Assembly: GCA_019022495.1 (NCBI GenBank)
Contig: JAFEKR010000009.1
Span: 1,922,001 to 1,986,000, forward strand
Source of the DNA: Epichloe hybrida
Taxonomy: Eukaryota; Ascomycota; Sordariomycetes; Hypocreales; Clavicipitaceae
Length of the DNA stretch: 64,000 bases
Reading direction: 5' to 3'
The translations under genes and the position numbers were made by a program. Shown piece by piece: positions 9,301-40,764 of the stretch (positions are counted from its first letter, which is position 1; every line of letters begins with the position of its first letter). The notes under the pieces were generated by a model. The model made no database searches. It was given only the letters and a program-made list of their open reading frames with translations, and was not told where the DNA came from.

Positions 9301-9919
9301 TATAGTTTATAAAGTCCTTAAGTAATATAAGTATCTAGGTCTAGAATTTATCCTAATTATCCTTAAGATTATCCTAGCTATTAGCCTATTATTTATTAAG
9401 GTATTTATCCTATCTTACCTTATAGTTAGTATATATATAGTTAAGTATAAAAAGGATCTTTTAGTAATTATATTAGTATTTTTTCTTTACCTTATTAAAG
9501 GTATAGTTTAAGTTATTTATCTATATCTTATATCTCTAGGGATTTATAAGGTATTAAAGCTTAGTAATATTCTTAACTTTAATCTTTTAGTTACTATTAC
9601 TTAAGAAAAGGCTAGCTTTTTACTTACTTTTTCCTTATACTTCCCCTAAGTTACCCTTAATAAGGTTAATAAGCTTTTATTCTTATTTTTATAATCTTTA
9701 GAGTTTTTCTAGCTAAGTAATTTACTTTAGTATTACTATAGCTTTACTATAAGAGATAAAGGGTCTTATTATAAGTATAGTTTTATTAGTATATAGTATA
9801 TCTTTACCTATAGTATTACCCTTATTTAATTAGGTATAACTCTTATTTATTAGGGTTAGGTTATTATCTAATATTACTTTAGCAAATTAGGTGGTTCTCC
9901 CCCCTATATTACTCTTAGG

Positions 9920-10329
9920 CAGAGTATTGCACTACAATTGATTTGTAGTGTATTTTTTATTTAACAAATAATTTATATCTAATCTTAGAAAATATATAGA
10001 GATATAAAACTTCTTTTTTTAGATAGATAACTAAAAAACTACAATGTAGTTATATATAAAAGTGGGTCTAAAAGTGGACCCCTTGCCTATAAATTAGAAA
10101 AACTACATTTTACTACATTTTAGCACTAAGAATACACTACAAATGTAGTTTTTCTAATTTACAGGCAAGGGGTCTACTTTTAGATTCACTTTTATATATA
10201 GTATTTTTCTTAGGATTTATCTCTATAGGATTACGTAATTTATAGGATAATCTATTTAATTATAAGCTAGCTATAAAAATAAATGTAAAAACTACAAAAC
10301 ACACTACACTAACTACAAACAATACTCTG
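9920..10329 (-). mobile_element. 410-bp MITE, copy 2 (left inversion breakpoint)
   Basis: This is the same element as copies 1 and 3 but inverted relative to them. Its flanks are ctcttagg (9912-9919) and cttataac (10330-10337), which do not match each other. Each is the reverse complement of one flank of copy 3 (cctaagag, gttataag). The left neighbour is gypsy C internal sequence. Hybrid flanks of this kind are expected at one breakpoint of an inversion produced by recombination between two MITE copies. Confidence 0.92.
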
Positions 10330-11790
10330 CTTATAACACTAGTAAATTTAAACCTAATAATTAAAATAAGCATTAGTAATTACTCTTATATAAGTTAAAA
10401 TTACCTCTAGGCTAGGACTAAACTAAAGTAGCCTATACTAGAGATATTATAACACTAGTGCCTAGGACACTTAATTAATTAAGTTTTATATAAAATACAC
10501 TAACTTCTCTATAGCTTACTTAATTACCTTAGATTAAAGCTAGAGTAAGTATAAAATAAAGGCAAAAGGGTTATACCTTTATTCCCTTATTAATAACTTA
10601 CTTTAATTACTTCTTAGTTTAGGATTTTCTAGAGAACTAGTTATAGTTAATAGTTTCCTAGGCAAATTAAAACTAGAAATATATTAAAACTAAGGATACT
10701 TATAGGTTTAGCTAGTATATTTATAAGAATATATTATTCTTTATAATATATTATAGTAAATATTAGTAACTAACCTAAATCTAGCCTAGAATAGCCTTAA
10801 ATAGTCTAGAAAAAAGAAAAAAACCTATAGGAAGTTTAATATAAAAAGAGAAAAAAAGATTAAACCCCTATAAGGAGAAAGATCTTTCTTATACTTATTA
10901 AAAAAAGGGAGGGACTAAATCTAAATTAAGGCTTAAAAAATAATATATAGTAAAGGTTATTTATAAATAACCCTAATATAAATAAGACTTAGTATTAGGT
11001 AAAGCTTAGCTTAAAATTACCTTTCTTTAATAGTATATAAATAAAACTAAGTGCTTAAACTTTATAATACTTATAAGCTAGAAATAGGTTAAAATTAGCT
11101 AAAAAGTAAGGCACTAGAAAAGTTAGTAAGAAAGGAAAAAAGAAGTAAATAATTAATCTAAACTAAAATTCACTATATATAAAATAAAGTAAAATAGCCT
11201 AGGATAGGCATAATATTAGACTAAATTTACACTAGGAGGGAGTCTAGTTACCTTTATTTTAGTAAATCTTTCCTTTATCTTTTTTTTCTTATAACATAAG
11301 GCTAGTATTAGCTAGTAATAAATACCTATAGATAATTACTTACTAAGTAGTGTAAGCCTATAGTAAGACTAGTACTAACTTAAATATAAATATAAGGGGG
11401 TTTTTCTTCCTATTTAAGGGTTTTCCCCTTTAACTAAGTAGTGGGAGTACTAGGAATAGCTATACATAGAGCTAACTAGTGTATATAATATATATATACT
11501 AATTATCTAAAGATTCAATAATTAATTAACTTAAAAGAAAAGTACTAATTTAAAAGAAAAGTATACTTATTATAAACACTATATAATTACTACTATATTA
11601 GACTATAAAGCTAGGGTTTAATATAATTATATTTATTAAGTTATTTAACTTTATAAGAGAGTAAAAACTATAGTTTAAATACTTAAGTACCTTTACTATT
11701 AGTAAGGTACTAATATAGTGCTAAAATATACTATAAAGTTATAGAGGTCTTAGAAAATAACTAGCTAGGGGTAGACTATTATCTTAGCTA
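10330..11790. mobile_element. AT-rich RIP-degraded DNA with non-LTR-like 3' end copy
   Basis: About 10990-11500 aligns with 60-540 of the window (non-LTR-like 3' region, ending agtactaggaatagctatac...). The remaining parts (10330-10990 and 11500-11790) are TpA-rich with no reading frame, and I see nothing recognisable in them. Base composition changes abruptly to normal at about 11800. Confidence 0.5.
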
Positions 11791-11884
11791 GTTAAGTAGC
11801 AAGACTATCGTGCGGCAAGGGTAAACTATGCCCTTGTGAGTGTAACAAAAATGGAGTCTCTTTGCCCACACGTGATGATCTCCG

Positions 11885-11912
11885 TGGGGTGGTGGGGGGT
11901 GGTGGGGGGTGG
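11885..11912 (+). other. G-rich tract, potential G-quadruplex
   Basis: Three long G runs separated by tggt occur within 28 bases on the plus strand, at the left edge of the normal-composition island. A second G-rich tract lies just beyond the other end of the NRPS remnant (22965-23011). The role is unknown; the tract is read directly from the sequence. Confidence 0.5.
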
Positions 11913-12534
11913 CAGAAATCTGGAGGTCCAGAATGTTGCATAACAAAATATGTATTCCGTACCATCCCGTACCATTCCGCACCTTTGAGAAGACTTCCAG
12001 CCACATGCGAAATGGTCAGAAACGACTCCGACTACACCTGGGCCGCTAGCCAGCGGTTGTGGTTGTAATGGTGTATGGTGACCTACCCCCTATCTCCACG
12101 GTTCACTCGACAGTCTATTCGATATGACGCTGCGTTTCCACCATGCGACGAGTACCAGAAGGCGTATAATACAGAGCGTGCCTGCGCGAACAGTGCTTTC
12201 CATTCAGTCCACATCCTCATTTCCCTTTGGGCTCCCGGGCAGTGGTGTTCGTTTCCCCCCAAGTATCTCACGTGGTCAAGGACTCAAGATGGTTACGGAT
12301 TTCACAAACGTGTAATTACAGGGACGTAAATGTGAAACACATCTAGAGCTTCTCATGGTAGTCTATTTGTATTAAGTTACTACTATCACAATGAGCTTTA
12401 GCTTTAGCTTTAGCTTGCGCTCTGAATAGCTATTATCTATACGATAACAAAAAAAAGATCATCATCTTAAACTCCCAAATTTTTATATGTCGAGGATTTT
12501 TTCTCATAGAGAAAACAGTGAAAAAAAAAATGGT
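11913..12534. other. Intergenic DNA 3' of the NRPS remnant, no gene seen
   Basis: The composition is normal and not RIP-like. Several short frames occur on both strands but none shows a recognisable domain or splice pattern. A short tandem agcttt run is at about 12390-12415. I assign no function. Confidence 0.5.
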
Positions 12535-12655
12535 AGAAAGGACAAAGAAAAGGACAAGGAAAGGACAAAGAGAAGGATAAATAAAAGGATAAGGAAAGGA
12601 CAAAGAAGAGGACAAAGAAAAGGACAAAGAAAAAGGACAAAGAAAAGGAAACAAA
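12535..12655 (+). repeat. Purine minisatellite, about 12-bp unit ggacaaagaaaa
   Basis: About nine imperfect units of ggacaaagaaaa run through this stretch, which is purine-only on the plus strand apart from the C/T in each unit. It begins about 35 bp downstream of the NRPS stop codon (minus-strand sense), so it would lie in the 3' UTR as a pyrimidine-rich transcript segment. Confidence 0.75.
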
Positions 12656-12688
12656 AGATATTTCCATCCCGCGTAGCCCGCAGGCAAT

Positions 12689-14040
12689 TTAGAGAGTGAG
12701 AGCAAGGATATCAGCTTCAGGATGAGTAAGAACCCTGTCAATAGCCGTGCCAAAGGTCTTGGCCAACGCGACACCCTGACTGCCGGGCAAACGCTCTGCC
12801 CAACATTCCAGTGTCACGTCCACCTCATTCTCGTCATATGCTACTCTGATGTAGACATCATACTGCCGAACCGTGGTCAGCAGTTGTCATGAACACCGTC
12901 TCATCGAATCCAAGCGACTTACCTCGACTGGATCAAAGTCATTCTCCATCTCCATGGTGTGGCCGTCCGAGGTTGATGCCTCGCCCCGGGCCCTCTTGAC
13001 AACAGAAATAGCCGTATTGAACAGCGGCGATCGGTCTGCCTGAGAGTATCGCTGCGTGTTCACCGTTGCATTGGTCTGATAGCTTAGACTTCGTAGGAAA
13101 TCCTCGTGTGCCTCAGTGACAGCGCTCAGAACGCTGCGTGGTTCGTCAAGCCGAATGCGGCATGGCAGGAGGCTCAGGAGCGGCCCAAAGATGCCGTCCA
13201 CGTTCTTGACCGCAACATCTCGTCCGGAATTAATGTTGCCGAAGCACGGCGTAGTTGAGCCGGTCTGCTGACGCAACACCAAAGCCCAAGCCGTCTGCAG
13301 GACATTGGCAGGTGTAACTTCATGCTTGGTGCAGAACTCTCTCATCTTCAGAGCGTCAACAAGTGGCACGTCAACCTCGAAAGTACCCCGAGGCAGAGCC
13401 GCCGTGGTCTGAGAAGTAGGAAGCATGCAGGGCTCCACATCTTGCAGATAGTGGCTCCAAAATGTGTCACCCTCGACTCGGCTTCGGGACTCCAGATACG
13501 TGGCGAAGTGGGCGTACGGTGCCGCTGGCGACGCCGGACGGCCCTCGTACGCGAGTTGGAAGTTCTCGAGGAGGATGTCGGAGGAGTGACCGTCGGTGAT
13601 CGCGTGGCTCATCTCAAATCTTAGGTATGCGCGGTGCTTGTCTGTTTGATAGACGGAGAGATGATGCTGTAGGCCGTCTGGGCGGAACGAGACGGGATGG
13701 AAGACACTTTGGCTCCTTGAAGTGGCCAGGGAATCGGCTTCGCGTTCAAAGTATGAGATACTTGGCCTCGGGTCCCTGAGTACGACTTGCATTGTTTGGC
13801 CACCCCGAGCTGCATCCTTCATGAGCAGAGCACGCAAGAGGGCGTGACGTCGAACGACAGCTTGCCAAGCTTGTTGGATTCTGGCAAAGGTCACCGGCTT
13901 GTTACCGGGAGTTGCCAGAATCTCCAGGCCAAACCCGGTCACATAGACTCTGGAGTCTTTATCCCGCGCCAGTAACATACCTTCCTGCATGGGAGAACAG
14001 GGGAAGACGTCTTCAATGTCCGACAGTTGAGGCATGTGGA
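12689..14040 (-). pseudogene. NRPS terminal condensation domain
   Basis: This domain starts with IEDVFPCSPMQEGMLL (about 14020) and runs in one open frame to an intron at 12863-12922, then to YDVYIRVAYDENEVDVTL and a stop at 12689. The usual HHxxxDG catalytic motif is SHAITDG (about 13591-13611), so the first His is Ser. Such SHxxxD variants are known in fungal terminal (cyclising) C domains, and also result from loss of function, so its activity cannot be inferred. It is the best preserved domain of the gene. Confidence 0.88.
12863..12922 (-). other. Intron near the end of the terminal C domain
   Basis: This is a 60-bp intron with donor GTAAGT and acceptor CAG on the minus strand. Splicing joins ...DFDPVE to YDVYIRV... 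in frame. Without splicing the frame stops shortly after the donor. The position in the C-domain fold is the same as that of the intron at 19549-19617. Confidence 0.85.
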
Positions 14041-14149
14041 TGACCCGGGTTCGTTGACGGTGGAACTCGGCAATTTCATGGGCGGAGGAGAATGGACCAG
14101 ACGAGTCCCAAGACTCGACGACCCGGGAACTGGTGTCATGGGCCGCAGC

Positions 14150-14330
14150 GAGATGGGCAATTGTCTTCCTCTGGAGAATATCGGCCGTGGAGACATTCAA
14201 GTTCTCGGCCCGGGCGAGAGATGATACTTGCATGGCAGTGATGGAATCGCCACCAAGACGGACAAAGCTGTCGTCCACGCCTATGCTTGACAGGTCGATG
14301 TCGAGGACTTTCGCCCAGATCGACTGCAGA
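14150..14330 (-). pseudogene. NRPS thiolation (carrier) domain, last
   Basis: The carrier core reads DSFVRLGGDSITAMQ, with the phosphopantetheine-accepting Ser codon at about 14243-14245. The helix residues before and after it are those of a normal carrier. It is in frame with the terminal C domain but separated by a frameshift (about 14390) from the A domain that should load it. Confidence 0.88.
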
Positions 14331-14429
14331 CTCAGCTCGACCTCGGACGACGGGGGCCCGTTTGCTGTCCCTGGAGCCAGTGCGTAGTTCAGCGAGCTGC
14401 TGCACCGTGATGTTGGCGCCCATGTCTCG

Positions 14430-16010
14430 CAGAGCTCTACGATCTGTCTTGCCGCTCGCAGACACGGGCAGGTGCGGGACAAAGATGCACGCCGAGGGCA
14501 TCATGTACGTGGGAAGCATCATTGCCAGTTCGTCTTCCACATCGGCTGGAACGCTGGCGATGCGGGCGGCCGTCGTCGACCAACCATCTTCGCCCCCGAT
14601 ATCATCTCGACTTGGTTGCTCAACCTGCTCCCTTGCCGAATCCTTCAGGACGATGAAGACGGCCAACTCGGCCGCTGGCGCCCTCGCCACCAGGCACAAA
14701 CACCTCGGCCACGACCTCGCGGGCGTTCGGCATGCTCAAACGCGTGTAGTGCTCCACCTCGCCCATTTCCACTCTCTGCCCGCGAATCTTGACCTGCGTG
14801 TCCTTGCGGCTGACAAACTGCAGACTGCCGTCTGGACGGTAACGCACCAGATCGCCAGTCCTGTAGACTCTTCCGCGGCGTCCAGGGTGACCAGGCGCGC
14901 CGCGTAGCAGCCACTCCGGGGTCTGTGATGAAGGCCGCAGCCGTCTTCTCCGGATCTGCCAGGTAGCCTGCTCCCACAAGGGGTCCTTCCAAGAGCAGCT
15001 CGGCTGTCGCTCCGAAGGGCGCCAGTCGAGAGGAGTCATTCGGATCTACGAGCCAAGGAACAAGACCCGCGCCGACACCAATGTTGTTGAGTTCCCCCTC
15101 ATGGTCCGCGTCGAGCTGGATGGTGCTTGTGGGTGTGCACTCCGATGGCCCGTACGTGTTAATGACTGTGACGTTATCTGGCCATCCTCGCAGATCATCT
15201 CGTTGTATAGCTTCACCACCGAGGATGAGGTACTTCAGGCGTACAAGCTGGTCCCGTCGTAAGCTGCGTGCGACGGAGGCTGTCAGCTCAACCAGGGTGG
15301 CTTTCGAGGCCACCAGGGAGGCCGTCAGGTTGTCTATGCGCTCAGCTTCCGAGGGAACGCAGAGGCACCCGCCCGTCGCAAGTGTCATAAACATTGTCTC
15401 AATCGCCGCGTCAAAGACGTAAGATGCGAACTCGTACACGCGCGTGTTTCTGGAGTAGCCTAGCGCACGAGATTGGTGGTAAATGTCGGACGAGAAGGCT
15501 GAATGGGTGACCATTACTCTCCCTTAGGCTTGCCGGTACTCCCAGATGTAAACACGATGTACATGGGTGAATCGGAGTCGGCATCTGCTCGGATGGATGG
15601 CGTTTGATCGGACATCTTGGCGAGCGAGTCGCCGCCAACCTCCACAACGTCACCTACGACATCTTTGCACTTGTCGAACTCCGTGGGCGAACAGAGCAGT
15701 ACTTCTGCGCGTGTCTGCTCCGCGATGGAGCGCAACCGGGCAACAGGCTGCTTCGAGTCGAAGAGAACGAATGTGCCCCCGGCTTTGAGAACAGCCAGTA
15801 TTGCCACCACCGTCCAGCGAGACTTTTCCAAGTTCAGCGGGACAATGGACTTGGGCCCCACGCCACGGGCGATGAGATCGCAGGCGAGGCGGTTGGACAT
15901 GTCCTCGAGCTCGGCGTATGTCCACTGACCATCCCAAGAGCTGACAGCCACTGAACCAGGCTGCGTCTGTGCAGCATGTAATACCCAATCTTGCGCTACT
16001 CTGTCAATCT
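14430..16010 (-). pseudogene. NRPS adenylation domain, last module, frameshifted
   Basis: Core motifs are readable in order: SWDGQWTYAELEDMS (A1-like), LKAGGTFVLFD (A2), VFTSGSTGKPKG (A3), then a 2-bp (AG) duplication at about 15518 shifts the frame before VMVTHSAF. NTYGPSECT (A5), [15 protein letters not shown] (A6), YRTGDLVRY (A7) and SASGKTDRRAL (A10, with the catalytic Lys) follow in changing frames. A rough reading of the specificity residues from alignment to GrsA is D-A-E-E-I-G-T-P-T-K. I do not recognise this code and the alignment was done by eye. Confidence 0.88.
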
Positions 16011-16099
16011 TATCAGGAACTCGAGCGTTCAACTGCCAGATGGCTGCCATATCTCGCTCTCCAACGCTGTCCAAATCATCAAGCATCATGGTATCGTCG

Positions 16100-17350
16100 A
16101 GGCCGGGATCGCACAGCTGGCGGAGGATATGCTCGAGCTGTGAAGCGATTCGACGAACTTCCCTGCGGCTTATAACGGTGGAGTCGAATTCGATTTGCAT
16201 GTGTACTCCATCTTGCCGCAGACTGCATTCCAAAGTGAGAGCATGTGTGCTAAAGTCAGCATCTTCAGCATCTCCAGCCCCCTCGTCTTCTTCCTTTTTC
16301 TCGTTGCCGTCGGCGAAGAGAAGACTGTAGTTCACACTGCTTTCCCTGTCCGCGGGCTGTATCACCAACAGACTTTGGAAATTGCATGCTTGGTCGTTGC
16401 TAGAGCTGATTTGACGGATTTTTTTGCAACCCGGTCTGCTCGAACGCCATCATCTCGACCGCGCTGGACTGCACGTCATGCAGGAGCTCCGTTAAAGGCT
16501 TGCCTTGTTCCAAAACGACACGAACCGGCACCGTCGCAATGGTCGGGCCCGTCATTTGGCCGACTCCCCCAACAGGGGCTTGACGTCCGCTGACGGTCAT
16601 GCCGAAGACCACGTCCGGCGAGTTGGTGTATTGGCCGATCAAGATTGACCAGGCTGCTCGAAGGACGGTAGACGGTGTAACATCAGCAGCAACTGGCCAG
16701 GCAAGATCCTTGATCGAGTAGGATGTAGCTTCGTCTGGTGTAGGCTGGTAAGCCGTAAAAGGCAGGGGAGGGAAGACTGTCGACTCGGGTCCACCGAGAT
16801 GAGACTCCCAGAACTCTGCCGAACGTTTGGGGTCAACGTTCATGATGTGTTTGACGAATTTCTGGAAGGGGGGCGGGCGATCAATCACTGCAGCCCGACT
16901 CTGGTAGGCGTCTTCCAATCGTTGCAAGAGCAAGGGCATCGACCACCCGTCATAAAGCGCGTGGTGCAGGGTCAAGGCGAAGAAGCGCTTCGTCTTGTTC
17001 GCTGCATCGGCCAGAATTGCCACACGCAGCAGCGGCTTCCCCAGTCCCATCTGTTCTTCATCGAAGCGTTTGTAGGCCTCCAGGTCTCGGAAGTCTTCTT
17101 TCGCTGATCCGTCTGCTGGTCTGGACACGACGACTTGCACCAGTCCCTGATGAACAATGTTCACGATGCGGGTGCGCAGGATCGGAGTTGCTGCTACTAC
17201 AGCCTTCCACGCGATGTAGAGCCGGTCAACATCGATGCTTGATTGAAGCTCCATGAGAAAACGCCCGACGTAATCACCTGATCGCTTTGATGTCATGGCA
17301 AGAAGCCCCTCTTGAAGTGGCGTACATGGGAAAGCGTCTTCAATGCTATC
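16100..17350 (-). pseudogene. NRPS condensation domain with intact HHxxxDG
   Basis: This domain begins IEDAFPCTPLQEGLLAMTSKR (about 17341). The catalytic motif HHALYDG (16946-16966) has both His residues and the Asp, so of the three near-complete C domains only this one keeps a canonical active site. A run of seven A on the coding strand (16419-16425) shifts the frame between TGLQK and IRQIS. A homopolymer-length error in the assembly could explain that one break, but not the others. Confidence 0.9.
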
Positions 17351-17474
17351 CACGCTGACGTTGCAAAGAGCTGCCATCTTGGCACGCGCTGCACCGACGT
17401 CGGTGATCTTCAGAAGTGAATAAGGCTGGATGTCCTGGTCGGCTCCAGACAAGTACCTGACCCTCTGAGCTAGA

Positions 17475-17690
17475 TCACAGAGCTTGGGAGATGTAAAGAC
17501 GTTCGCAACCGTAAGATCGAGGCCACGATCGCGCGCTGCCCCGACAAGTTTCATGGCGCCGATCGAGTCGCCTCCAATTCGGAAGAAACTATCCAGTGCT
17601 CCGATGCTGTTCATATCAATTCCAAGAACAAGAGACCAAAGCTCCTGCATTTGTCGCTCCATGGATGTCTTGGGCGATTGTCGCTGACCC
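17475..17690 (-). pseudogene. NRPS thiolation (carrier) domain
   Basis: The core reads DSFFRIGGDSIGAMKL, with the modified Ser codon at about 17564-17566. It is in the same open frame as the following C domain and the A10 motif MTATGKTDHRRL upstream (about 17767). Confidence 0.9.
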
Positions 17691-17739
17691 CCAGTGGCGT
17701 TCATTGTTGTCAATTCCTCCATGCTGTATCCTTCACCAA

Positions 17740-19430
17740 TAGCGCGGAGACGGCGATGGTCGGTCTTGCCCGTCGCGGTCATGGGAAGACTCGCCAGGAG
17801 AAGGTAAGCGGACGGGATCATGTACGCCGGGAGCTTGGCAAGGAGACTGTCAGTCAAATCCGGAATCTTGTGCTTCGCAGCGGCGAGAAACGCTTTGTGC
17901 AACTTCCGTGTCTTTTCCTGTTGTGTAAATGAATGCCACCAGCCTTGGTTTCCGACTGTCTCGAGGCGCGATGACATCCGCCACAAATTGGACACGGTCA
18001 TCTTCAAGACCCATGCGTACGTGGTGCTCAACGTCGCCCAGCTCAACACGCTGCCCGTTGATCTTGACTTGGGCGTCCTTGCGGCCGACAAAAGTCAGGC
18101 CACCATCGGCGTCGTAGTAAACCAGATCACCCGTTTTATACAGCCGTCCATGCCGCCCAGGTTGGTTCTGGCCTGGCCCACCTCTAAGCAACCAGGTGAG
18201 AGCCTCGATGAAGCTTGCGGCAGTCTTCTCGGGGTCATTCAGGCAGCCTTCGCCAACCAGGGGCCCCTCCAGCAGAAGCTCACCAACAACACCAATGGGC
18301 AACAGTTCGTCATGGTTGGAAGGTCGAACAACCCAGGTGGACAGGCCGATGCCCACGCCGATGCTCGTGTTGGCGACACTGCTGTCCTTTTGCATGACAG
18401 CGCCAGTTGCATTAACACTGCATTCCGCGGGGCCATAAGTATTCAGCGTCAGAGTCCGAGCAGCCCATTTAGCAGCCAGGTTACCTGGGAGTGCCTCTCC
18501 GCTAAAGAGCAAGGCACTCCAGGCCGCTGAAATCGGATGGCTCTAGAGTACTGGCCACTGAGGGGGTCAGATATGTAAATGTCACGCCGTAAGAACGGAA
18601 AGCTCCGGCGATATCGTTCCTAGCCTCATGAAGCGAAGGGATACACAAGCATGCTCCTGCTGTTATGGTATGCAGGAAATTAGACCATGCGACGTCAAAG
18701 GAGTACATGGCAAGGTCAAAGACCCTAGAAGATGGCTTAAATCCTAACTCGCTTTGTTGGTGGCGGATCGCACTGGTGAAGTTGGAGTGTGTGATCACAA
18801 CACCCTTGGGCGTACCGGTGCTACCGGATGTAAAGACCACGTAGAGTTTATTTTGCCGGCTGTATGTCTGGCAGTGGTCGGTTGGCCGCCGTGTTTAGTT
18901 GTTTCTGCTCTGCTTCGCAAGCCTCTTCCAGTACGATAATAGGTCTGTCAGTTAGTTGTTTGGCTAGACCTTGGTTGCTCCTAGAAGCCACGATTACAAC
19001 GGGCTCGACTTGGCGAACAATGGTGCGAAGACGCTCCCCTGGTAGATTAGTGTCAAGAGCCACCGAGGCGGCTCCAGCCTTCATCACAGCGAGCATAGCA
19101 ACGGGAGTCCAACGTGAACTTTTCGAAACACAGAGGCACAATCCCATTAGGTTTGATGCCTTGACTAGTGAGGTAATGTGCTATGAGTGTGGAGAGGTTA
19201 TCCAGCTCAGCATAAGTCCAGTTGCCGTCCCACGCGCACACAGCTAGGGCATCTGGCCGATTTCGTGCTGTAGCCATGGAAATATGTCGTGAACGAGTCC
19301 GTCGACGGTCTCGAATGCCGTCTTGTTCCATTCCCACAGTTTGTACAAATCTGGGCTGCTGCACTTGTCTAATCAGACAAGCGCTTGGGCGTCTTGCTCT
19401 CGGCAGACATGTCTTGTGTGGTGAGGGCAA
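17740..19430 (-). pseudogene. NRPS adenylation domain, middle module, four frameshifts
   Basis: Motifs in order: [29 protein letters not shown] (A2), VVFTSGSTGTPKGVVITHSN (A3), SGEALPG, NTYGPAECSV (A5), [13 protein letters not shown] (A6), YKTGDLVYY (A7), GRKDAQVKINGQRVE (A8). Breaks fall at about 19115, 18850, 18508 and 17900. By eye, the GrsA-equivalent specificity residues read approximately D-V-S-Y-?-?-T-V-N-K; the two unknown positions fall at a frameshift. Confidence 0.88.
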
Positions 19431-20790
19431 TGACGTTGCTGCGCAGGAGTGATGTGACGCTCTCCTTTTCCGAACGAGACAGAGAGCAGCAAGTCAAGGA
19501 CAGGACGACTTCTTCTGTCCCATATCCTATGTTTAATGCAAGATCGTACTGCAAATTTTCTTTTTCCGCAATATAAGCTTCGGGGCAAGCTCAAAGGGGA
19601 AAATAATCATCACTTACCTCTGTTGGGTGCTCGCTGTCAAGCTCTGTGATTTCCACTGTTGGGTTCACTGCATCTTCATCTGCGCCCATTTCCTCGTTTC
19701 TCTGGAAAGAAACAATGGTTTTAAAGAGCGCCTGTCTAGACGGTATGTTTAACGCGTGCTGGATGTCCGCTAATGAGCAGTGCTGAAATACGAGGTCTTC
19801 GAGCACCTGGTCGTGGGCCTTCTTGATAACATCGTCAACTTTCTCGTCGGCTGCGAAGTTCAGGCGGCAGATCAGCATGTTGGCATACGCGCCAACAGCG
19901 TCAGTAATTCCCAAGGTGGGAAGATCTCTGCCGGATGCAAGGTAGCCAAAGCAAACGTCGCTGGTTCCGACGTACGCCTGCAGAGTTAAGCCCCAAGCTA
20001 CTTGGAAGATACTGGCAGGGGTGACGGAGTGATTCACGCAGAAACGATGGACGCGGACAAGTGCATGTCCGTCAATTGTTGAAGTGGTGTTAGTGAGAAC
20101 GTCCGGCTCGACGCCAGCTGGAGAAGCAGAGAGTTGGGGGAAATGGCAAGGCTCTGTGCTCGCGAGCTTTCCCTATTCCAATATGCATCTTCTCCGCCGC
20201 AGAACTGGACATGAGGGCTCTTGCGAAGTCTTTGCTCTACTTAGATAGACCTCCTTGTCCTAATGTGCCCTCGTAAGCGGCTGTCCAATCTCGGATGATC
20301 AGCTCATTGGAGGCGCCGTCTGTGATAGCATGGCTCATTTCGAGGTGGGCAATTACTCGCCCGTCCGATAGTTAACACAGGGTGAGGCGATGGGGAGGCT
20401 TCTCGTGCCTATATTCAACGGGAGGTAAGTTTTTGAATGTGTCTAGAGCTGTGCTCTCGTTCTCAGATCGAAGTATGGTGATGTCGCCTTGGCAGGATTG
20501 CAAAAGTACTTGATAGAAGGCAGATACTCGATCTAGCCCTGGGACGAATACGCTACGGAGCGATGGTTGGCGAGCAATAGTAACTCTCTAGGCATGAGCT
20601 AGCCTGTCTGGATTGACAGGGCTGCCGCTCCGAGGACATTCTATCTCGTAAGTCTGGGACGTCTTGTATGATTTGGGGTCCCTGATCTGGCTTAGCAGTG
20701 TACCATCAACCATAGGTGAGCAAGGAAACACATCTTTAACCCGAGTTTTGTTAGTAAGCTCAATGTTGGGAATCATGTGGCTCTGGAGCT
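19425..20790 (-). pseudogene. NRPS condensation domain following the E domain, degraded
   Basis: It begins VKDVFPCSPMVDGTLL (about 20730) and continues after a stop near 20588 with RSVFVPGLDRV and MSHAITDG (20315-20335), where the first catalytic His is Ser as in the terminal C domain. The second half (MNHSVTPASIFQVAWG to ELDSEHPTE) is open to an intron at 19549-19617. Position after E suggests a DCL-type function in the ancestor. Confidence 0.85.
19549..19617 (-). other. Intron near the end of the second C domain
   Basis: This is a 69-bp intron with donor GTAAGT and acceptor TTGCAG. Splicing joins SEHPTE to YDLALNIGYG in frame. It occupies the same place in the domain (PxE|YD) as the intron of the terminal C domain, pointing to duplication of an intron-containing unit. 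Confidence 0.85.
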
Positions 20791-20809
20791 GATCTAGTCC
20801 TCGGTAATC

Positions 20810-21900
20810 GAGCTGCAGAAATTCGTAGTCGCACAAGGTGCGTGATGCATCCCTCGAAGCCAGGCTCTCGCAGATGATGGTCAACGATGTTCCGATTGAG
20901 TCAATCCATTTATTGATGAGGCCCTGATGAGCGATGTGGCGATTATAAGTAAAAGAATAATTGGCCGTTCCACCTTCGAATAAAACATTGATGTTGAACA
21001 GCGTCGATGCCGGCAGCGACGTTCCTTCTTCTGGCACATCGAGAGAGATGCTCTCGAAAAGGCCATCTTCCTTCTCCAGTTGCTGGAATTGACCGTGATA
21101 GTTGAATAAAACCTCCGAGGTAGATTCATGTGACTCAAACGCCAGGCGTCCTTTGTTCGTTAAATACCTGGAAGCAAAGTAGGCCCAGCCATTGCTTGGC
21201 AGGCGCCTCCGCGCATCTTTGACATGGCGTACGACGTTGGCTGCGATGTCATCTCCAATTGCCGCCCTCGACAGATGGATAGGTGTCATGGTGGTAAACC
21301 AACCAACCGTGCGTGTCGGATCAGTCTCTGGAGTTCAAGTTTCACGACCGTGTCCCTCGTTGAAGATAGTCAGTCCCTCGCGGTCTTTGAACACGGACAA
21401 GAAGGCAGCCCAGACCGCTGAAAGAAGCAGATCGACTGGTGTCGAATCCAGGGCGGCGTTGCTGTCCTTAAGCAGCAAAGATGTCATGTGCTCATCGATG
21501 TCGATTGATCTCATCTCATGATCGCTAGTAGTATTGGAGACGGATTCATCAAACTTCCAAAACGTCAGATCATTAGAGACCCCGCTAGTGGAAAGGAACT
21601 TGGAAGGATCGATGTGCTCGGACGACTCGGCCTTCTCAACCTGAGCACGATTTCAAACCTGGAAGGGGAGGCTGTATTACTAGTAGTTCGCCTCCATCTA
21701 TGAGAGTCTCGAGGTCGTCCAGGAGAACACGCCATGATACAAGATCTATGACTAAATGGTGCGCGATTAGTATCAGGTAACAGGCGCCATCGGGCAACGT
21801 GTAGGCGTCTGCGGCAAAGACTGGGCCTCGTTCGATATCCAATTCTTGTTGTCTCTACAGGGTTACAGCCTCGACGTCGGAAAGACTCTCCGAACATCGG
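20810..21900 (-). pseudogene. NRPS epimerization domain, degraded
   Basis: The E signature DIERGPVFAAD is followed by HHLVIDLVSWRVLLDDLE (about 21710-21765, both His and the Asp kept), then after a frame change VDLLLSAVWAAFLSVF and, near the C-terminal end, GWFTTMTPIHLSRA and WAYFASRYL. The HHxxxDxxSW form and the GWFTTM block distinguish E from C domains. It would convert the residue loaded by the preceding A domain to the D-form. It is broken by a frameshift at about 21650 and stops. Confidence 0.88.
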
Positions 21901-21929
21901 ACGAAGCACCGAAATGATAGACGCCATCA

Positions 21930-22590
21930 TCTGCAGGCAGCACACGTTGCGATCAGACCCCTTTTAAATTTGCAGATGAGCTCAATGGCATGTCTTTCAG
22001 GACCACCCACCCCCGGGAGATCATCCCGGCGCTCGTCGTCGGAGGGGATGCAGAGGCAGCCACCACACTCGAGTGCACACAAGACGTTCGACAAAGCAAC
22101 GTCAAAGGCGTAGGATGCAGAGTCGACAACTTGCGCATTGGCCGTAAACCACGTGCCATGCAAATCCCGCAAGGCAAAGCTGAAGTTGGAATGGCTAACC
22201 ATCACCTCCTTCGGTACACTATTTGTGCCGGACGTGAATACAACATGGAGCCTCGGCCACGCTTCCACCTCTGGTAGAGGATTTGTAAGAGTCGCCGTCG
22301 TCGTCGCCTCGACTAGGCCTTCATATTCAGCAAAGATGGCTTGATTTGTTAATCGCCTGGACGGCCAGAGCTGCCACAGGGGGTCCAGCAAGACTTCTCG
22401 AAACATAGGGGAATGATTATTTAAGGCCTAACGTTTTGAGAGCGACCACGTACCGCGCGCGCGAGACGAGTTAAAACGGCATACAGCTTGGCATAAGTCC
22501 AGTTACCGTCCCAGGCGCATGTCACGGGTGCCCTGGGTTAACTTTGCACTGTTGCTGCGATGATGTCATGTACTGGCACATCTGCTGTCG
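21930..22590 (-). pseudogene. NRPS adenylation relic, internally deleted
   Basis: An A-domain start ([19 protein letters not shown], about 22475-22535) is followed after a gap by VVFTSGTNSVPKEVMVSHSN (a damaged A3 loop) and SYAFDVALSNVLCALECGGC (A4). All of A5-A10 and the carrier domain are absent, and E-domain sequence follows within about 50 bp. It is therefore a deletion product. Confidence 0.8.
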
Positions 22591-22649
22591 GAAATGGCAT
22601 TGCTGTTATTACCATTGTTGTCTTACTTAAACAGGACACTGCTGCCCTC

Positions 22650-22895
22650 TGAAGCGGGATTCTCGCCCAACACCATGTATGACCAGCAGGGTCTGGAATT
22701 TGCAAGCGCTTGCAGCGGCAGCGCTGACACGACGAATGTGTGACAATCCAGGTCGCTTGGCTGTCATGGCAAGCAGACCTTCTTGAAGTGGCGTGCATGG
22801 AAATGCATGCTCGACCATGCCTTATTCAACGGCGCACAGAGCTGCGATCTTGCCGCGCATCGTCTCAGTGCTGACAGTCAATTTCAGGATTTAGA
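22650..22895 (-). pseudogene. NRPS condensation relic, central part deleted
   Basis: The start of a C domain (EHAFPCTPLQEGLLAMTAKRP, about 22755-22815) runs directly into its C-terminal part (IRRVSAAAASACKFQTLLVI). The whole centre with the HHxxxDG motif is lost, some 350 residues judged from the other C domains here. It is the most upstream recognisable NRPS piece. Confidence 0.8.
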
Positions 22896-22964
22896 ATGGC
22901 TTGATCGCGTCTTAAATGGTACTTGAATCAGAAAGAACCACAGTAGCAAGGTTCCATCGAGGAG

Positions 22965-23011
22965 CGGGGTGCCGGGGGTGTGTGCCGGGGGGGGTGCCGG
23001 GGGGGGGTGCG
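22965..23011 (+). other. G-rich tract, potential G-quadruplex
   Basis: Repeated gccggggg/gtgcc blocks with G runs of 4 to 9 on the plus strand sit exactly where NRPS similarity stops. This is a plausible fragile or breakpoint site, but that is inference. Confidence 0.5.
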
Positions 23012-23129
23012 GCCGTGAACCCGAACCAAGTGGAGATCGCGAGGCTTGGCATCTCGGCCGGATGTGACCTTGCGCAAGGGGGAACGGGACGGGCCCACTT
23101 CACGGTGCTAGTAGGGCTTTATCTCACAT

Positions 23130-23963
23130 CCCTTCCACACCGTCCCGTCCCGTGGTCATGAACTCGTGAAGGTTGTGATGGGGTTGTGTGTAGCCTCGGT
23201 CTGGCAGTGACGAGTCAGAACTTGAGAGGCCCCTCAAGCACCTCACCATACAGGCGCACTTCAGCCATCCCCGGAAAGCGGAGACAATGAAACCGAATGG
23301 GTGAGGCCCGCCAGAATACGCTATTGCAGCTTTAAGGTCTGTTGTTCGAATGAGCATAACGCGGCCACCGGCTCCGACTCCCTCGAGATTGACAAATGTA
23401 AATACAGTAATTGTTCCCTTCAAAATACTGGCCGGCCCAGGTTGTCCCCGGTCTGTTGTCGCTTAAGCACCTAAGGTGCCTGCGTCATATATCATGGTGA
23501 AATTGGCAGCCTGGTCATCGAATATAGTGACGCGTGTGGCCCCAGTAGCGAAGTGATGATTGCCCGTGCTGCAATCAAATCTACAATGGATAGTCAACTA
23601 TTACAACCGCAAGTCGCAGTTGTAGATGGAGAACTTGGACACTTACAGGCTTTGCGATCTTATCGCTCGAAGCGATCCAGTGTTGTAACTAACCCCATTT
23701 CGATTCAATATTTCCTTTGATCGTCTCTGAATAAATTGCCGGACTCGGTCGTTATCACGACTGTTGAACGGGTGGTATGCATTTGTGATGTTTTGCAAGT
23801 CTTGCCACGCCTCGGTCAAATTTAGAGCGCGGGAAACATGCTCGGGAGCCGGCGGGATGGTTTCATGTTTGGATATGAAGAGCGTGATGATTGAGACATA
23901 TATAAACGCAGTCCAGAACGCAACTGGGCCTCGCCGAAAACCGACTAGATCATGAGGCCCCAT
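23130..23963 (-). pseudogene. PFF1: Vacuolar membrane M28-type metalloprotease, catalytic part deleted
   Basis: The N-terminus (start 23963) has the features of fungal vacuolar membrane proteases: FRRGPVAFWTAFIYVSIITL (first membrane helix), HETIPPAPEH, LNLTEAWQDLQNIT and NAYHPFNSRDNDRVRQFIQ. An intron (23569-23646) joins it to TGNHHFATGATRVTIFDDQ. After a stop and frame changes the text goes from [15 protein letters not shown] straight to [20 protein letters not shown] and HPFGFIVSA. The stretch that carries the zinc ligands in this family lies between those two blocks and is absent, as is the multi-helix C-terminal half. It is a truncated, non-functional copy; the active gene must be elsewhere if the species has one. 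Confidence 0.82.
23569..23646 (-). other. Intron of the M28 protease pseudogene
   Basis: This is a 78-bp intron with donor GTAAGT and acceptor GCAG. Joining ...AIRSQS to TGNHHFATGATRV keeps frame and family-like sequence, so the splice sites survive although the gene does not. Confidence 0.65.
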
Positions 23964-24443
23964 GGCTGTGACATAATGGAGAGCTATGGGGCCGCCATAT
24001 GGAAAATAACAGCAGAGTTAGAAGACTTAAACTGTCATTGACTGGAAAGGTAAACACCTCAGTCAGCTTTACGCCTCCTTGGTGCATGCGAATCTCACAG
24101 AGGCTCCGCCAGAAGACACCAGATGGATTTGAGTGAGTCGAGCTGAAGGTATCTCGCAGTCGCAATGGAGCGGGCGGAGAAGGTTTCACACAATAAGGCG
24201 GTGCGTCGCGACTCCCCGACCCGACACCGCCAGCAAAACAACATTAACTAGTTCAAAGTTAGTTTGACCTTGTACAGAGTGAACTGGTAATATATATAAT
24301 ACTCCGTATGGCACTCTGTGCTTTCGTTCACTTTCGCGCCAGACATGCACCATATGAATTCCCATATTCCGTATCCCAACCACGTCTGTGACTGCTGGGA
24401 GAATTTGTTTCCAGCTGAGAAATCTGGTTCATCATCATCATCA
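23964..24443. other. Intergenic, no gene seen
   Basis: These are 480 bp of normal composition between the protease pseudogene start and the UstYa stop codon. They would hold the protease promoter and UstYa 3' UTR. A tatatataatactccgtatg stretch is at about 24290-24310. The short frames here show no domain. Confidence 0.5.
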
Positions 24444-25683
24444 CTAATCAATCCCCGTTACTTTGCCAGATCCCGCCTTGGCCAAGGAGTCTTTGAAACC
24501 TTCACTAGGCTTGCCGTCAATGAAAAGGGGACCTATTTCAGATGCAAGTTAGTAAGGGTCGCCAAACTGTATCGAAAGGAGGAAGCGATGTACCTACCGA
24601 ACGCAGGATGAACAAGCATGCCGTCCGCAAACACGTCCACAGAATTGGGAACGACCCATTCCATTAACCTGTCCCAATTCACGCACTCGTGAGGACTGCT
24701 AAGGTTACCTATTGGGCGAGCTCCTTTGTCGTCCCATTTCATGGTGAGAACCGTCGTGTCTCCCTGACACATGATGGCATCCATGAGCATGTGCATACAG
24801 TGATCTACGAATCCCCCTGTTAGCTTAAAGAGGCATATGGGAACGGAGAGCGCTCGCAAATTGCTGAACTGTGCAGAGTACTCCAGTACTAACATACCAG
24901 TGTGCTCTCGATGCATGGCTAGCTCAGAGCCCTCCAGCTTATCTAGGTGGTAGTAGGTAGGGTTCAAGGCATGGTATATGTTTTTCTGGTCAAAAGTTAA
25001 TTGCTTCTGAGTGACCTGCGGCGAGGTGCATTTGGAAAGAGGCCCTTGGACGTACAAGGCAATGAAGATGATGAAACACCATAAGCGATCCAAAATAGGT
25101 TCCGCCTGGAAGTTTGATGCCTTCTTCCTCCCGACCTAGTTCGTACATGAGCTCTGACGAGATTCCAATGTTCTGATCTAGACACTATGCTTGAGTACCT
25201 TACTTCCCCTTCGGCTCATCGCGTATCGAAGCAGATTCAGACATACGTTCAAACATCTTGTGCCAATTTTGGTCGACTTGCTCACTAGGCTCACCAAAGT
25301 ATTTCACATCCCCAGGATACTCCCACTGATTCATCACATAAGGGTCATATGTGATGTAGTCATTTGCAGGAGCTCAAGAGATTGCACAAGTCACGTCAGC
25401 ACTTCCGAACACATTGCTTCGCTAACAGCAAAAACTTACATTTGAGAAACCGCGTGCCGTGTCTGCGGCTCTGTTGCATCATGTTCCATGTCACGGATGC
25501 AACAATTGTTGTGTACGCTGTGAGTGCTAACACCGCAACTATCGCAATCACCGGCTGAACGCAACTGTTTCGCCGGTGGCGTGCTGAGTTATTCTTGCAG
25601 GTTAAATAGTCACCTTCCACCTCAGAACTTGACATGGTATCGTCATGGCTGACGATGGGCAGATAATCAGATGATTCCTTCAT
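24444..25683 (-). CDS. UstYa-family (DUF3328) peptide-modifying oxidase, six exons, intact
   Basis: The exons are 25683-25440, 25372-25247, 25177-25056, 24985-24898, 24804-24598 and 24532-24444. Spliced they give one open frame of 291 residues with no stop. A membrane helix lies at about residues 44-66 (PVIAIVAVLALTAYTT...), then SPANDYITYD at 82-91, and the two HxxHC motifs that define the family: HHLHC at 159-163 and HTDHC at 192-196. DTTVLTMKWD and HECVNWDRL follow. Family members (ustiloxin and cyclochlorotine clusters) carry out oxidative cyclisation, hydroxylation or chlorination of peptides. Next to an NRPS remnant it is best read as the tailoring enzyme of that cluster. A start at 25710 (MVQVAKQSN) is also possible. 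It is the only gene in the window that looks functional. Confidence 0.9.
24533..25439 (-). other. Five introns of the UstYa-family gene
   Basis: The introns are 25373-25439 (GTAAGT..GAG), 25178-25246 (GTATGT..TAG), 24986-25055 (GTACGT..CAG), 24805-24897 (GTATGT..TAG) and 24533-24597 (GTAGGT..TAG), of 67, 69, 70, 93 and 65 bp. Each was chosen because it restores family motifs in frame: the second gives MFE|HQNIGIS, the fourth gives REHT|DHCMHM, the fifth gives HPAFG|PLFIDGK. An alternative acceptor for intron 4 at 24817 would insert four residues into the second HxxHC. Confidence 0.85.
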
Positions 25684-25752
25684 GTTGCTTTGCTTTGCTA
25701 CTTGAACCAAGACGGGTTTGCAAAAGAGTAAGGGTGCGACGTTGACTGTATT

Positions 25753-25765
25753 CTACTCCGAGTAG
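25753..25765. promoter_or_regulatory. Near-palindrome upstream of the UstYa gene
   Basis: ctactc-c-gagtag lies about 70 bp upstream of the first ATG (25683). A 6-bp inverted repeat with a single central base could be an activator site or chance; no factor is identified. Confidence 0.25.
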
Positions 25766-26107
25766 GCAACAACTAACGGAAGGAATCAATTTTTCACAAA
25801 CATACTTTGCGGAGGGGAAGGTCAGGGGCTGGGATATGACGAAGTTTCGGTTACGTAGGCGTTATGATTGCAACGTAAATGGTGTTGTTCCTTTTTATTC
25901 CTTTTGAGTTTCTATCATGCGGTGATACGACATTCCTATGCCTATCTACATGTTGACCAATAATGCGAGCAAAAGCTCCTAAGACACGGCTAGCTAAATT
26001 CGCCGCATTAGGATTGCTACAGATCGGTGTGTCTTAGGTCATTAAACGCGCATATCACGTTAGTCCTAATTCGGAAAAAAAGTCCCTATACCTAATCCTA
26101 GTGTAGT
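25766..26107. other. Promoter-side DNA of the UstYa gene, nothing specific seen
   Basis: This is a transition from normal composition to a milder AT-rich, CpA-poor sequence. I see no gene, repeat unit or convincing regulatory site. Confidence 0.4.
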
Positions 26108-36978: not shown

Positions 36979-36999
36979 ATAAGTTATTTTTTTTAAAAT

Positions 37000-37130
37000 A
37001 CTACAAATACTACAAAATACTACAAATACTACAAAATACTACAAATACTACAAAATACTACAAATACTACAAAATACTACAAATACTACAAAATACTACA
37101 AATACTACAAAATACTACAAATACTACATG
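37000..37130 (+). repeat. 19-bp tandem array (actacaaatactacaaaat)
   Basis: About seven near-identical head-to-tail units of 19 bp form a subterminal array of E2, probably the counterpart of transposase-binding subterminal repeats in hAT elements (inference). Confidence 0.75.
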
Positions 37131-37175
37131 TAGTAAAAAAAATTTCTTGTAGTGTAGTATATAGTGTAGTGTAGT

Positions 37176-38818
37176 CAGAGTATTGTTTGTAGTGTAGTTA
37201 GTGTAGTTTTTAGGAAAAATTTGTATTTGTAGTGTAGTTTTTTTTTTTTTTTGTAGTGTAGTGTATTGTAGTTTTTTTTTTTTTGTAGTTAGTGTAGTGT
37301 AGTTTTTTTTTTTTATAGTGTAGTGTATTGTAGTTTTTTTTTACTTATATTGTAGTGTTAGTAAAAAAAAAGTGGGCCTTTTTATTATATAATGTTATTA
37401 TAAGGATTAAAAGAAAGCTAGTTATATAGAAGCTTTTATCATTACCTATTTTACTTAATTAGTTATAAAATTTATAAAATTTACCTTTTTTTAAGGATTT
37501 TACTATAACTAGGGTTATTTATAATATTATACCTTTTTAATAATACTATTATACTTATTACTTTATTTTACTAATATAACTTTAAGAAACACCTTCTAAT
37601 TATTTTATTTACTATTATTTACTATTATTATTAATTATTTTATATTTTTATTATTAATTTAATTAAAAATACCCTAAACTAATATAATTAAATTAAATTA
37701 GAAATCTAAATAAATATATAAAAGTTAATAGAATATATACCTAGTACTTTAATATTATTATTAATATAATAAGAACTTAAAAAAAGCTTAAACTATTTAT
37801 TTACTATTTAAACTAATTAAATATTACTTTAAGCTTTATAATTCTAAAGCTTTAAGAAGTTATATATAGTAACTTTATATATCTTATTATAATAATACAT
37901 AAAGAAAGAATATAATAGACTAATATTTATAATTTATTAATAGATAACTAATAGTATTATTTTAATTACCCTATATAGCTTAAATAAGCTATAAAAAATA
38001 AGTTTAACTTGTTTTTAAAAATAATACTAGGACTTAGTTTTATATAATATATTATACTTATTATAAAAGCTTTAATAACTTTTATAACCTTAATTACTAT
38101 TATTACTATAATTACTATTATTTTACATTTATTATTATTTTAAAAATACATAAAAGAGAAAATATTTTTATAATATTAATATTTTTAAAAACCTTAAAAT
38201 ACTAAGTTATTAAAAACTATAGCTTTTACTATAGTAATTTACTTATAATTACTAGTATTTATATTTAAGTTATTTATTTATTATTTATTATTATTAAATT
38301 TAACACTAATAATATTATAAGTAATCTTAGTAATCTTAGTAATCTTAATAATTTATAGAAATAGTAAATAATATAATAAGAAGGTTTTTCTTTAAGTTAT
38401 ATTAGGGAAATAAAGTATTAAGTTAAATAGTATTATTAAAAAAGTATAATATTATATATAACCTTACTTAGTTATAATAAAATTATAAAAATAATATAAT
38501 ATTATAAATTCTATAACTAATTTAATAAAATAGGTAATAATAAAAGCTTTTATATAACTAGCTTTCTTTTAACCTTATAAATACTAATAACTAATAAAAA
38601 GTCTAATACTATATTTGTAGTGTTTGTAGTTAGTGTAGTTTAGGAAAAAAAAATTTGTAGTGTAATATATTATAGTTTTTTTTTTTTTATAGTTAATGTA
38701 GTGTAGTTTTTTTTTCCTTATAGTTAGTGTAGTTTGTAGTGTAGTGTAGTTTATAATGTAGTTACTACACTACACTATAAATACTACACTACACTACACG
38801 TTTTAGTGCAATACTCTG
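37176..38818 (+). mobile_element. Long-TIR hAT-like element E4, nested in E2
   Basis: TIRs CAGAGTATTG/CAATACTCTG have perfect 8-bp duplications agtgtagt (37168-37175 and 38819-38826). The first and last roughly 450 bp are inverted copies of each other, around a central unique part of about 700 bp. No transposase. At 1643 bp it is the shortest copy, and lacks the retroposon insert shared by E1 and E5. Confidence 0.92.
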
Positions 38819-38900
38819 AGTGTAGTGTAGTGTAGTATGTAGTATACTACACTACACTACAAATACTACAAAATGTAGTGTAGTGTAGTACAAAGCTCTG

Positions 38901-39105
38901 CTTATATACTATAAGTCTTTATAGTATAGCTTTATTACTATAGAGCAAAACTTAGCTAGGCTATAGGGTATCTTAACTATATAGGTCTTCTTATTAGTAG
39001 CTAATAGCTTATAAGGGCTATACTATTTACCTTTTTCTCTTTATATATATATATTAGCCTATAGTAATAGCTAATATATTAGTAATATATTAGGGCTATT
39101 CTAAG
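38901..39105 (-). mobile_element. copia-1 integrase C-terminal piece
   Basis: The minus-strand translation reads YSPYKLLATNKKTYIVKIP then KFCSIVIKLYYKDL, the end of a copia-type integrase domain. It follows in frame on the 5' part at 541-3243 once gypsy C and one cttag duplication are removed. It ends at ctaag (39101-39105), the other copy of the gypsy C duplication. Confidence 0.8.
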
Positions 39106-39336
39106 TGTGAGGCCCCACTCACAACAACAGGTGCACCTGCGCACCCCACAGGCTAGCGAGGCCCTAGGGCTAGGTCCACGTGACACTAGCAAGCCACTAG
39201 CTATAAGCTAGTAACTCACACGTATAACACACTTAGACCTAGTAAGCTTTAGTTAATATACTAAAGCCTCTATACCTCTTACCTAGCTACTATTATTCTT
39301 ATAATTCTAAAGCTTTTCTTACTAGCTACCTAAGAG
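39106..39336 (+). repeat. Second LTR of gypsy C plus 33 bp of internal sequence
   Basis: The LTR is 39106-39303 (198 bp, starts tgtgagg, ends ttcttata). The following 33 bp match the internal sequence of gypsy A just after its LTR (ending gctacctaagag). The piece stops at the MITE. In isolation it looks like a solo LTR, but its TSD pairs with that of the LTR at 3244, which makes it the missing end of gypsy C. Confidence 0.9.
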
Positions 39337-39746
39337 CAGAGTATTGTTTGTAGTTAGTGTAGTGTGTTTTGTAGTTTTTATATTTAATTTTATAGCTAGC
39401 TTATAATTAAATAGATTATCCTCTAAATCACGTAATCCTATATAGATAAATCCTAAGAAAAATACTATATATAAAAGTGGGTCTAAAAGTGGACCCCTTA
39501 CCTGTAAATTAGAAAAACTACATTTGTAGTGTATTCTTAGTGCTAAAATGTAGTAAAATGTAGTTTTTCTAATTTATAGGCAAGGGGTCCACTTTAAGAC
39601 CCACTTTTATATATAACTACATTGTAGTTTTTTAGTTATCTATCTAAAAAAAGAAGATTTATATCTCTATATATTTTCTAAGATTAGATATATATTATTT
39701 GTTAAATAAAAAATACACTACAAATCAATTGTAGTGCAATACTCTG
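39337..39746 (+). mobile_element. 410-bp MITE, copy 3 (right inversion breakpoint)
   Basis: This is the same element as copies 1 and 2. The left flank cctaagag (39329-39336) is gypsy C sequence; the right flank gttataag (39747-39754) is not. Both flanks are found, exchanged and complemented, around copy 2 at 9920. Confidence 0.92.
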
Positions 39747-40764
39747 GTTATAAGGTAATGTTTGCCTTTATTCTAGGTCTAATTTAATGCTAATCTAATC
39801 CTAGGTAAAACTTACTAGACGTTAGACTAAGTATTAGTAATTAGTTAAAACCTAGGTAACTATTATTAATAAGGGTAATGTTAAAAATAAGACCTATTTT
39901 TAGCCCTTTCTAGTTAAAGGACCTTTCTATTACTAGCTTGCATTGCAAGCCTTGCAGCTGCACTACAGCTGTCAACGGTCGCGAAGGTGGCTATCAATGG
40001 CTATGTCGCAGCTGTCAACAGCTGCGACCGACCGTGTGGATAACTAATCCAAATCAATTGTGAATTATTCAATTGCGTTGTGGCTGCAAGCGTAGCCACA
40101 AGCGTAGCGCTACTAGTAATTAGGTAAGCTAGGGTAACATAAGCAGGTTACCCTGTACGCGGGTTACCCTATAGCTATCTTTAACAGTGATTTTCTCTTT
40201 AACTAGAGGTTATATAAAAGTCTTACATATAGCAAATTAAAGCTAGAAGATAGGGCTTTTATTTAATATAAGAATATTTTTTAGACTAAAAGTTAGTGCA
40301 TATAGGTTGCTAGTTTATATAGTGGTAAGTTGATTTTTTGGATTTTACATACAAATCAATTTTGCGGAAAATCAAAAGTAGCTCTTAAGACCTCTCTAGT
40401 GGTCTAGATTTACTAATATAGTTAGTGAGTATATAAGAGGAAGAAGATCTTTTTAATCTAGCTAGATAGCTAGGCCTCTTAATCCAATAGCTATATTGCC
40501 TATATAATGTCACTAAAATCAATTCTATTAGTATATAAGATATTATAAAAGTTATCTCAATTAAATTCTATTAGTTAATAACTGCCACAAACTTCCGTTA
40601 CGTTACGTTAAATATCTAACGTGGTAGTTCTATTAGTCCCTAACCGTAAAGCTACACCTGTATAGCTGTTGCTAGCTAGTAACTAGCTCCCTATATTTTA
40701 ATAGGTTATAAGCCTAGCCTATTACTATAAAATTCTTTCTAGTGCACTTTGCGTACGGTTATAA
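39747..40764 (+). other. Upstream region of copia-2, partly protected from RIP
   Basis: No reading frame is seen. A stretch at about 39940-40200 keeps CpG and CpA and contains repeated gcagctgtcaac and acaagcgtagc segments. It could be the LTR/leader of copia-2, but I could not find a second copy in the window to prove an LTR. Confidence 0.4.
40005..40028. repeat. Perfect 10-bp hairpin
   Basis: gtcgcagctg-tcaa-cagctgcgac is a perfect inverted repeat with a 4-base loop, GC-rich in an AT-rich setting. Function unknown. Confidence 0.6.

Follow-up and report, generated by a model that had tools for sequence, protein, structure and literature searches.

A 29,007-bp segment of the Epichloe hybrida genome was very probably flipped by ectopic recombination between two inverted copies of a hAT-like miniature inverted-repeat transposable element (MITE). 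The segment lies in the window, the stretch of 64,000 nucleotides analyzed here, which corresponds to C146:1922001-1986000 in an assembly (G000) of 79.86 Mb in 156 contigs. The transposon copies compared below all lie inside this single host assembly. A GC-rich island occupies about 12 to 27 kb of the window; the rest is AT-rich and made up of transposons, with dinucleotides biased in the manner of C-to-T mutation (the TpA/ApT ratio is 1.6 to 2.0 outside the MITE and the island and 0.6 in the island). The features that bear on the flip, with their target-site duplications (TSDs) and long terminal repeats (LTRs), are as follows.

9920 to 10329, + strand: MITE2, noncoding, hAT-like, 410 bp; left flank CTCTTAGG, right flank CTTATAAC
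39337 to 39746, - strand: MITE3, 410 bp, in the opposite orientation to MITE2; read in its own orientation, flanked by CTTATAAC (left) and CTCTTAGG (right)
10330 to 39336, no strand: segment read as inverted, 29,007 bp; reciprocal TSDs and empty-site paralogs on both sides
3244 to 9919, + strand: gypsy C without its 3' LTR; contains MITE1
39106 to 39336, - strand: 3' LTR of gypsy C (39106-39303) with the last interior bases, separated by the inversion
10330 to 11500, - strand: split copia element, one side
39747 to 39879, + strand: split copia element, other side; another repeat cuts in after about 133 bp
5943 to 6352, - strand: MITE1, within gypsy C at a 282-bp deletion, outside the inversion event
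12433 to 25752, - strand: GC-rich island with nonribosomal peptide synthetase (NRPS) domains (A, T, and C) and a UstYa gene

Exchanged duplications, empty sites, and the MITE family

MITE2 and MITE3 align without gaps in opposite orientations, with 12 mismatches (97% identity). Alignment and reading of the flanks reproduced the coordinates, 410-bp size, orientation, and flanks that the initial annotation had given for both copies. Turning back 10330-39336 makes both TSDs perfect, as had been claimed, with agreement at 8/8 letters each: CTCTTAGG then flanks one MITE twice and GTTATAAG flanks the other twice. Under a position-wise model of the target preference of the family, built from 45 distinct intact TSDs of the same MITE family, the chance of one such agreement is 6e-4 and that of both is 3.8e-7. 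No full MITE carries CTCTTAGG or CTTATAAC on both sides in the set of 64 copies that have a left and a right end.

Both insertion sites have paralogous empty counterparts. The first site, in gypsy C, is represented by a single, MITE-free CTCTTAGG in two other gypsy elements of the window (gypsy A and gypsy B, described below) and in a paralog on contig C13 (L094). At the second site, in the copia element, seven copies in six fetched loci are continuous and MITE-free; the 8-mer there is exactly GTTATAAG in three of them (L009, L010, and L014) and differs by one letter in the other four, being ATTATAAG in L012 and both L013 copies and GTTATAGG in L011. L014 matches for only 25 bp past the site, where another repeat begins. 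The DNA on both sides of the copia break is collinear with the unsplit copia copies.

The same flip brings the LTR at 39106-39303 back to gypsy C, as the initial annotation had proposed. CTTAG stands on both outer sides, next to this LTR (as the reverse complement of 39101-39105) and next to the 5' LTR (3239-3243); the chance that two pentamers agree at the gypsy C LTRs is 0.0047. In addition, the two gypsy C LTRs have in common a variant that none of the LTRs in gypsy A and gypsy B (four in all) carries, and this variant is also present in the C13 copy. Recombination between inverted MITEs, the cause suggested from the start, fits the exchanged TSDs, the splitting of both gypsy C and the copia element, the paired LTR TSD, and the apparently chimeric MITEs (see below).

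For a census of the family, MITE ends were located in the assembly within 3 mismatches (75 left and 82 right ends), and every left end was read, either in the window or in a fetched locus. A right end lies within 1.2 kb of 64 of them and is missing at that distance from the other 11. Sixty-one of the 64 copies are 400 to 425 bp long; the remaining three (322, 376, and 680 bp) were excluded from the TSD count. In the 61 full-length copies, the flanks agree at 8/8 letters in 47, at 7/8 in three, at 6/8 in one, and at 5/8 or fewer in ten. A TSD of 8 bp is a mark of the hAT superfamily. The count retains both L051 and MITE1, which are one locus in a block common to C107 and C146, as well as L062/L071 and L021/L052, which share TSDs and may be duplicated loci. 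In a comparison of the 75 left ends (78 rows, with three in duplicate) against 80 right flanks, MITE2 and MITE3 emerged as the only reciprocal pair in which neither copy has a duplication of its own. Several of the other 8/8 flank matches link ends that belong together, or else copies whose own TSDs are intact, and this comparison left the other mismatched copies (MITE1/L051, L034, L048, L054, L055, L059, and L068) without a partner.

Elements of the hAT superfamily have short terminal inverted repeats that start with CAGAG- or CAGGG-like sequences. Both ends of the MITE start with CAGAGTATTG. A possible autonomous partner, a 4.2-kb element with MITE-like ends and GGCATTAG on both sides, exists at C1:833895-838095 (L095 and L077); the 3.45 kb of it that was read has no frame of 70 amino acids, no profile search having been made. 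Other arrangements of the family include a MITE nested in the center of a same-family copy, with the TSD CTAAGAAT (L026, C1:6110900-6111693), and the two halves of a single MITE, separated by about 5.8 kb and lying on opposite strands, with the common flank CTTATAGC (L101 and L049, C103:12814 and 18592), a pattern that an inversion might leave if one of its breakpoints fell in the MITE center. In the C13 paralog (L094, C13:885800-890800), the gypsy 3' LTR is interrupted by a sequence that starts with CAGAGCATT and is perhaps a related hAT-like MITE. This copy was considered as an orthologous empty site on account of its 98% identity; because the stretch compared from its 5' part is only 75% identical to gypsy C and its 3' LTR is interrupted, it was classified as a paralog. 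At MITE1, 282 bp of gypsy C are replaced, and the two flanks of the element (GTAAGAGG and CTAATATA) do not match each other. An origin of MITE1 by deletion between two MITEs was not supported, as its left flank differs from the paralogous site, while the other flank matches.

Crossover point and proposed history

A further family member, L076 (C146:378956), has a perfect TSD of its own and resembles the parent that the gypsy site would have held before recombination. It carries the MITE2 letters at positions 54, 90, and 151 (3/3 of the left diagnostic sites) and the MITE3 letters at the next eight (247, 256, 266, 267, 304, 318, 324, and 360; 8/8). Thus, L076 agrees at 11/11 sites with the letters expected of the gypsy-site parent before recombination, whereas the runners-up among the 46 rows of exactly 410 bp, MITE3 included, score 8/11. 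The letter at 54 is unique to L076 and MITE2, and that at 324 is unique to L076 and MITE3. Because L076 switches from MITE2 to MITE3 letters there, the crossover is placed in MITE positions 152-246, which at 95 bp is also the longest tract in which MITE2 and MITE3 are identical. MITE2 and MITE3 therefore look chimeric by their diagnostic letters, only one parent having a clear sister copy.

We propose the following history. A hAT-type MITE would have inserted in gypsy C about 30 bp before the 3' LTR, generating the TSD CTCTTAGG, and a second MITE, in the opposite orientation, would have inserted in the copia element about 29 kb away, generating the TSD GTTATAAG. A crossover between the inverted copies, most likely in the 95-bp identical tract, would then have flipped the 29,007 bp. 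The order of events was probably gypsy and copia insertion, mutation, MITE insertion, and inversion, since the MITEs differ by 3% but the LTR pair of gypsy C differs by 17%. The mutation gradient described in the next section precludes dating. It is doubtful that the inverted MITEs, set in a mutated AT-rich compartment, make the island a reversible cassette, in which a 29-kb secondary-metabolite region would flip back and forth, both orders would coexist in a culture or in the species, and the neighboring flips within 64 kb would reflect frequent ectopic recombination of transposons.

A probable second inversion and rival explanations

The 5,979 bp between gypsy A and gypsy B also appears to have been inverted, as read from exchanged TSDs.

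42800 to 49632, - strand: gypsy A; TTAAG upstream, GTCGA downstream
49633 to 55611, no strand: second inverted segment, 5,979 bp
55612 to 62444, + strand: gypsy B; GTCGA upstream, TTAAG downstream

Gypsy A and gypsy B are inverted repeats of 6,833 bp with 94% identity, 5,979 bp apart, and a flip of 49633-55611 mends both 5-bp TSDs. In the AT-rich part, GTCGA occurs at a frequency of 2e-5 (its reverse complement at 4e-5) and TTAAG at 0.005. The unflipped join at the gypsy B site, in which the sequence that follows gypsy B, taken as its reverse complement, runs directly into 49633 onward, is read with the five bases present once in L089/L092 (a shared block, counted once), L087, and L028. At the gypsy A site, L024 and L039 are continuous, though altered around the five bases. 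Repeats of 6.8 kb such as gypsy A and gypsy B are harder for an assembler than the MITE. Among the six gypsy LTRs (starting at 3244, 39106, 42800, 49435, 55612, and 62247), like ends are 89 to 94% alike across elements, while the two LTRs within an element are 83 to 84% alike. The closeness of the 5' LTRs between elements raised the possibility of copying by duplication. Judged by eye, this closeness is better explained by a gradient of C-to-T mutation from the element interior, in which the inner LTR ends are mutated and the outer ends spared.

The 29-kb flip could be an artifact of assembly, the true order being unflipped and the assembler having crossed over inside the two MITEs. A misjoin of this kind would yield the identical TSD exchange and the same chimeric MITEs; the inversion, called provable in the initial annotation, is provable to the extent that the contig is joined correctly. 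At least one contig end in the neighborhood is chimeric, that of C107, which leaves C146 at window position 8112 in a chimeric gypsy stretch. On the other hand, the repeat is just 410 bp long at 97% identity, and the assembly, which presumably rests on long reads, has contigs of up to 8.3 Mb and resolved gypsy copies of 6.8 kb at 91 to 94% identity, and the window contains no N. Moreover, C146 matches the C13 paralog at 98% across the switch point of C107, and both breakpoints of the inversion are to the right of 8112, so that only the CTTAG and LTR evidence spans that point. Overall, we regard a misjoin as improbable.

C107 itself was rejected as a second haplotype. It resembled an allele, with 99% identity to the window over positions 1-9439, but C107 and C146 proved to be identical along about 18.1 kb (from C146:1912000 to window position 8111), after which C107 enters its chimeric end; it ends short of the junction. 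That end (L088, C107:241700-251661) is identical to a gypsy copy of C69 for about 1.2 kb and then diverges again. The head of C107 includes a 1.5-kb piece identical to C92, the head of which is in turn 97% identical to C146:1842000-1850000. Several small contigs (C92, C107, C22, and C111) appear to repeat parts of large ones.

Two other explanations concern the event itself. In alternative transposition, a transposase would have acted on ends taken from two separate MITE copies, joining them and so inverting the segment; such events are known for maize Ac/Ds (PMC8225341), and one is drawn in a supplementary legend of the Galileo study (PMC2775673). The route drawn there needs a new insertion site with a TSD of its own, whereas no third TSD is needed here, both MITEs are full length with reciprocal TSDs, and the crossover apparently lies inside the element; we consider this route very improbable. 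It is hardly credible that the MITEs inserted separately and that later alteration of their flanks produced a merely apparent exchange. Mismatched flanks do occur in 10/61 full-length copies, including MITE1 at its deletion, but the calculated chance of two reciprocal 8/8 matches is minute, the paralogous empty sites speak against coincidence, and coincidence would leave the split copia and gypsy C elements unexplained. Besides the chimeric end of C107, three observations weigh against ectopic recombination between the MITEs as we read it: (i) flank agreement of 5/8 or fewer in 10/61 full-length copies means that mismatch alone is not rare; (ii) L076 carries the MITE2 letter at site 366, the twelfth, for which the family divides 23:23; and (iii) for the copia-site parent no clear sister copy emerged, the best score being 7/11 apart from MITE2 itself (8). 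On balance, we infer that the event took place in the organism rather than in the assembly and by homologous recombination rather than by transposase.

Cargo of the segment and comparison with known systems

Inside the segment lie a UstYa gene and NRPS domains. The UstYa piece shares 71% identity with a protein of Metarhizium acridum (67% of the query aligned) and 97% with one of Epichloe bromicola (14% of the query aligned), and by this single protein the host belongs among the hypocrealean fungi. The Epichloe protein aligns with the UstYa region in three blocks, at 86, 70, and 97%; 23 gap columns fall in the middle block. An 89% copy of the UstYa region (24402-25874) exists at C1:2856295-2857771, and no second close copy of a 4.5-kb piece from the NRPS region was seen in the assembly. 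A similar protein (P0032; 99% identity over 89% of the query) is unbroken where the frame in the window shifts at 14352/14353. One A domain is in two pieces, in different frames that overlap at 15514-15523, and a further NRPS frame change occurs at 16400-16449; these changes leave no room for an intron. The breaks represent either a decayed gene or a consensus error. The description of the event as the reorientation of a metabolic gene cluster is correct for position, with the qualification that breaks interrupt the NRPS reading frame in places. As the island was moved in one piece and has transposon sequences at either edge, there is no ground for inferring a regulatory effect.

Two adjacent transposon-mediated inversions can be read here from one assembly through exchanged TSDs, one of them through a repeat of just 410 bp and probably through a 95-bp identical tract. 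A census of mismatched TSDs, combined with reciprocal pairing and paralogous empty sites, could count inversions across whole repeat-rich fungal genomes without a relative. If both orders occur among strains, the 29-kb flip would bear on the rearrangement of fungal metabolite regions. No fungal inversion with exchanged MITE TSDs was found among literature titles and abstract openings, where accented names are unsearchable, and this is weak evidence of absence.

A comparable setting is that of Tolypocladium inflatum, also hypocrealean, in which inversions of 10 to 40 kb and larger, relict NRPS pieces, and hAT and other transposable elements near NRPS clusters are described; the passages of that paper covered here resolve no inversion to a pair of element copies (PMC6367777). 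In Atlantic cod, hAT-derived MITEs have been proposed as the substrate of ectopic recombination at inversion breakpoints. There the MITEs form tandem arrays, and the terms searched in the main text of the cod study (PMC12368964) turned up nothing on TSDs, whereas the MITEs of the window are single copies with exchanged TSDs. The nearest parallel in mechanism is provided by the Galileo inversions of Drosophila buzzatii, for which ectopic recombination was inferred from opposite orientation, exchanged TSDs, and chimeric copies (PMC2775673). The MITEs of the window show the first two marks, and the letters of L076 support the third less firmly. Galileo differs in that its copies are longer (about 1.5 kb), its TSDs are of 7 bp, and its host is a fly with a standard chromosome at hand (PMC2775673), in contrast to a 410-bp MITE with 8-bp TSDs in a fungus known from one order only. 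The mechanism of inversion is already known from other organisms, and its sequence record in the window is clear.

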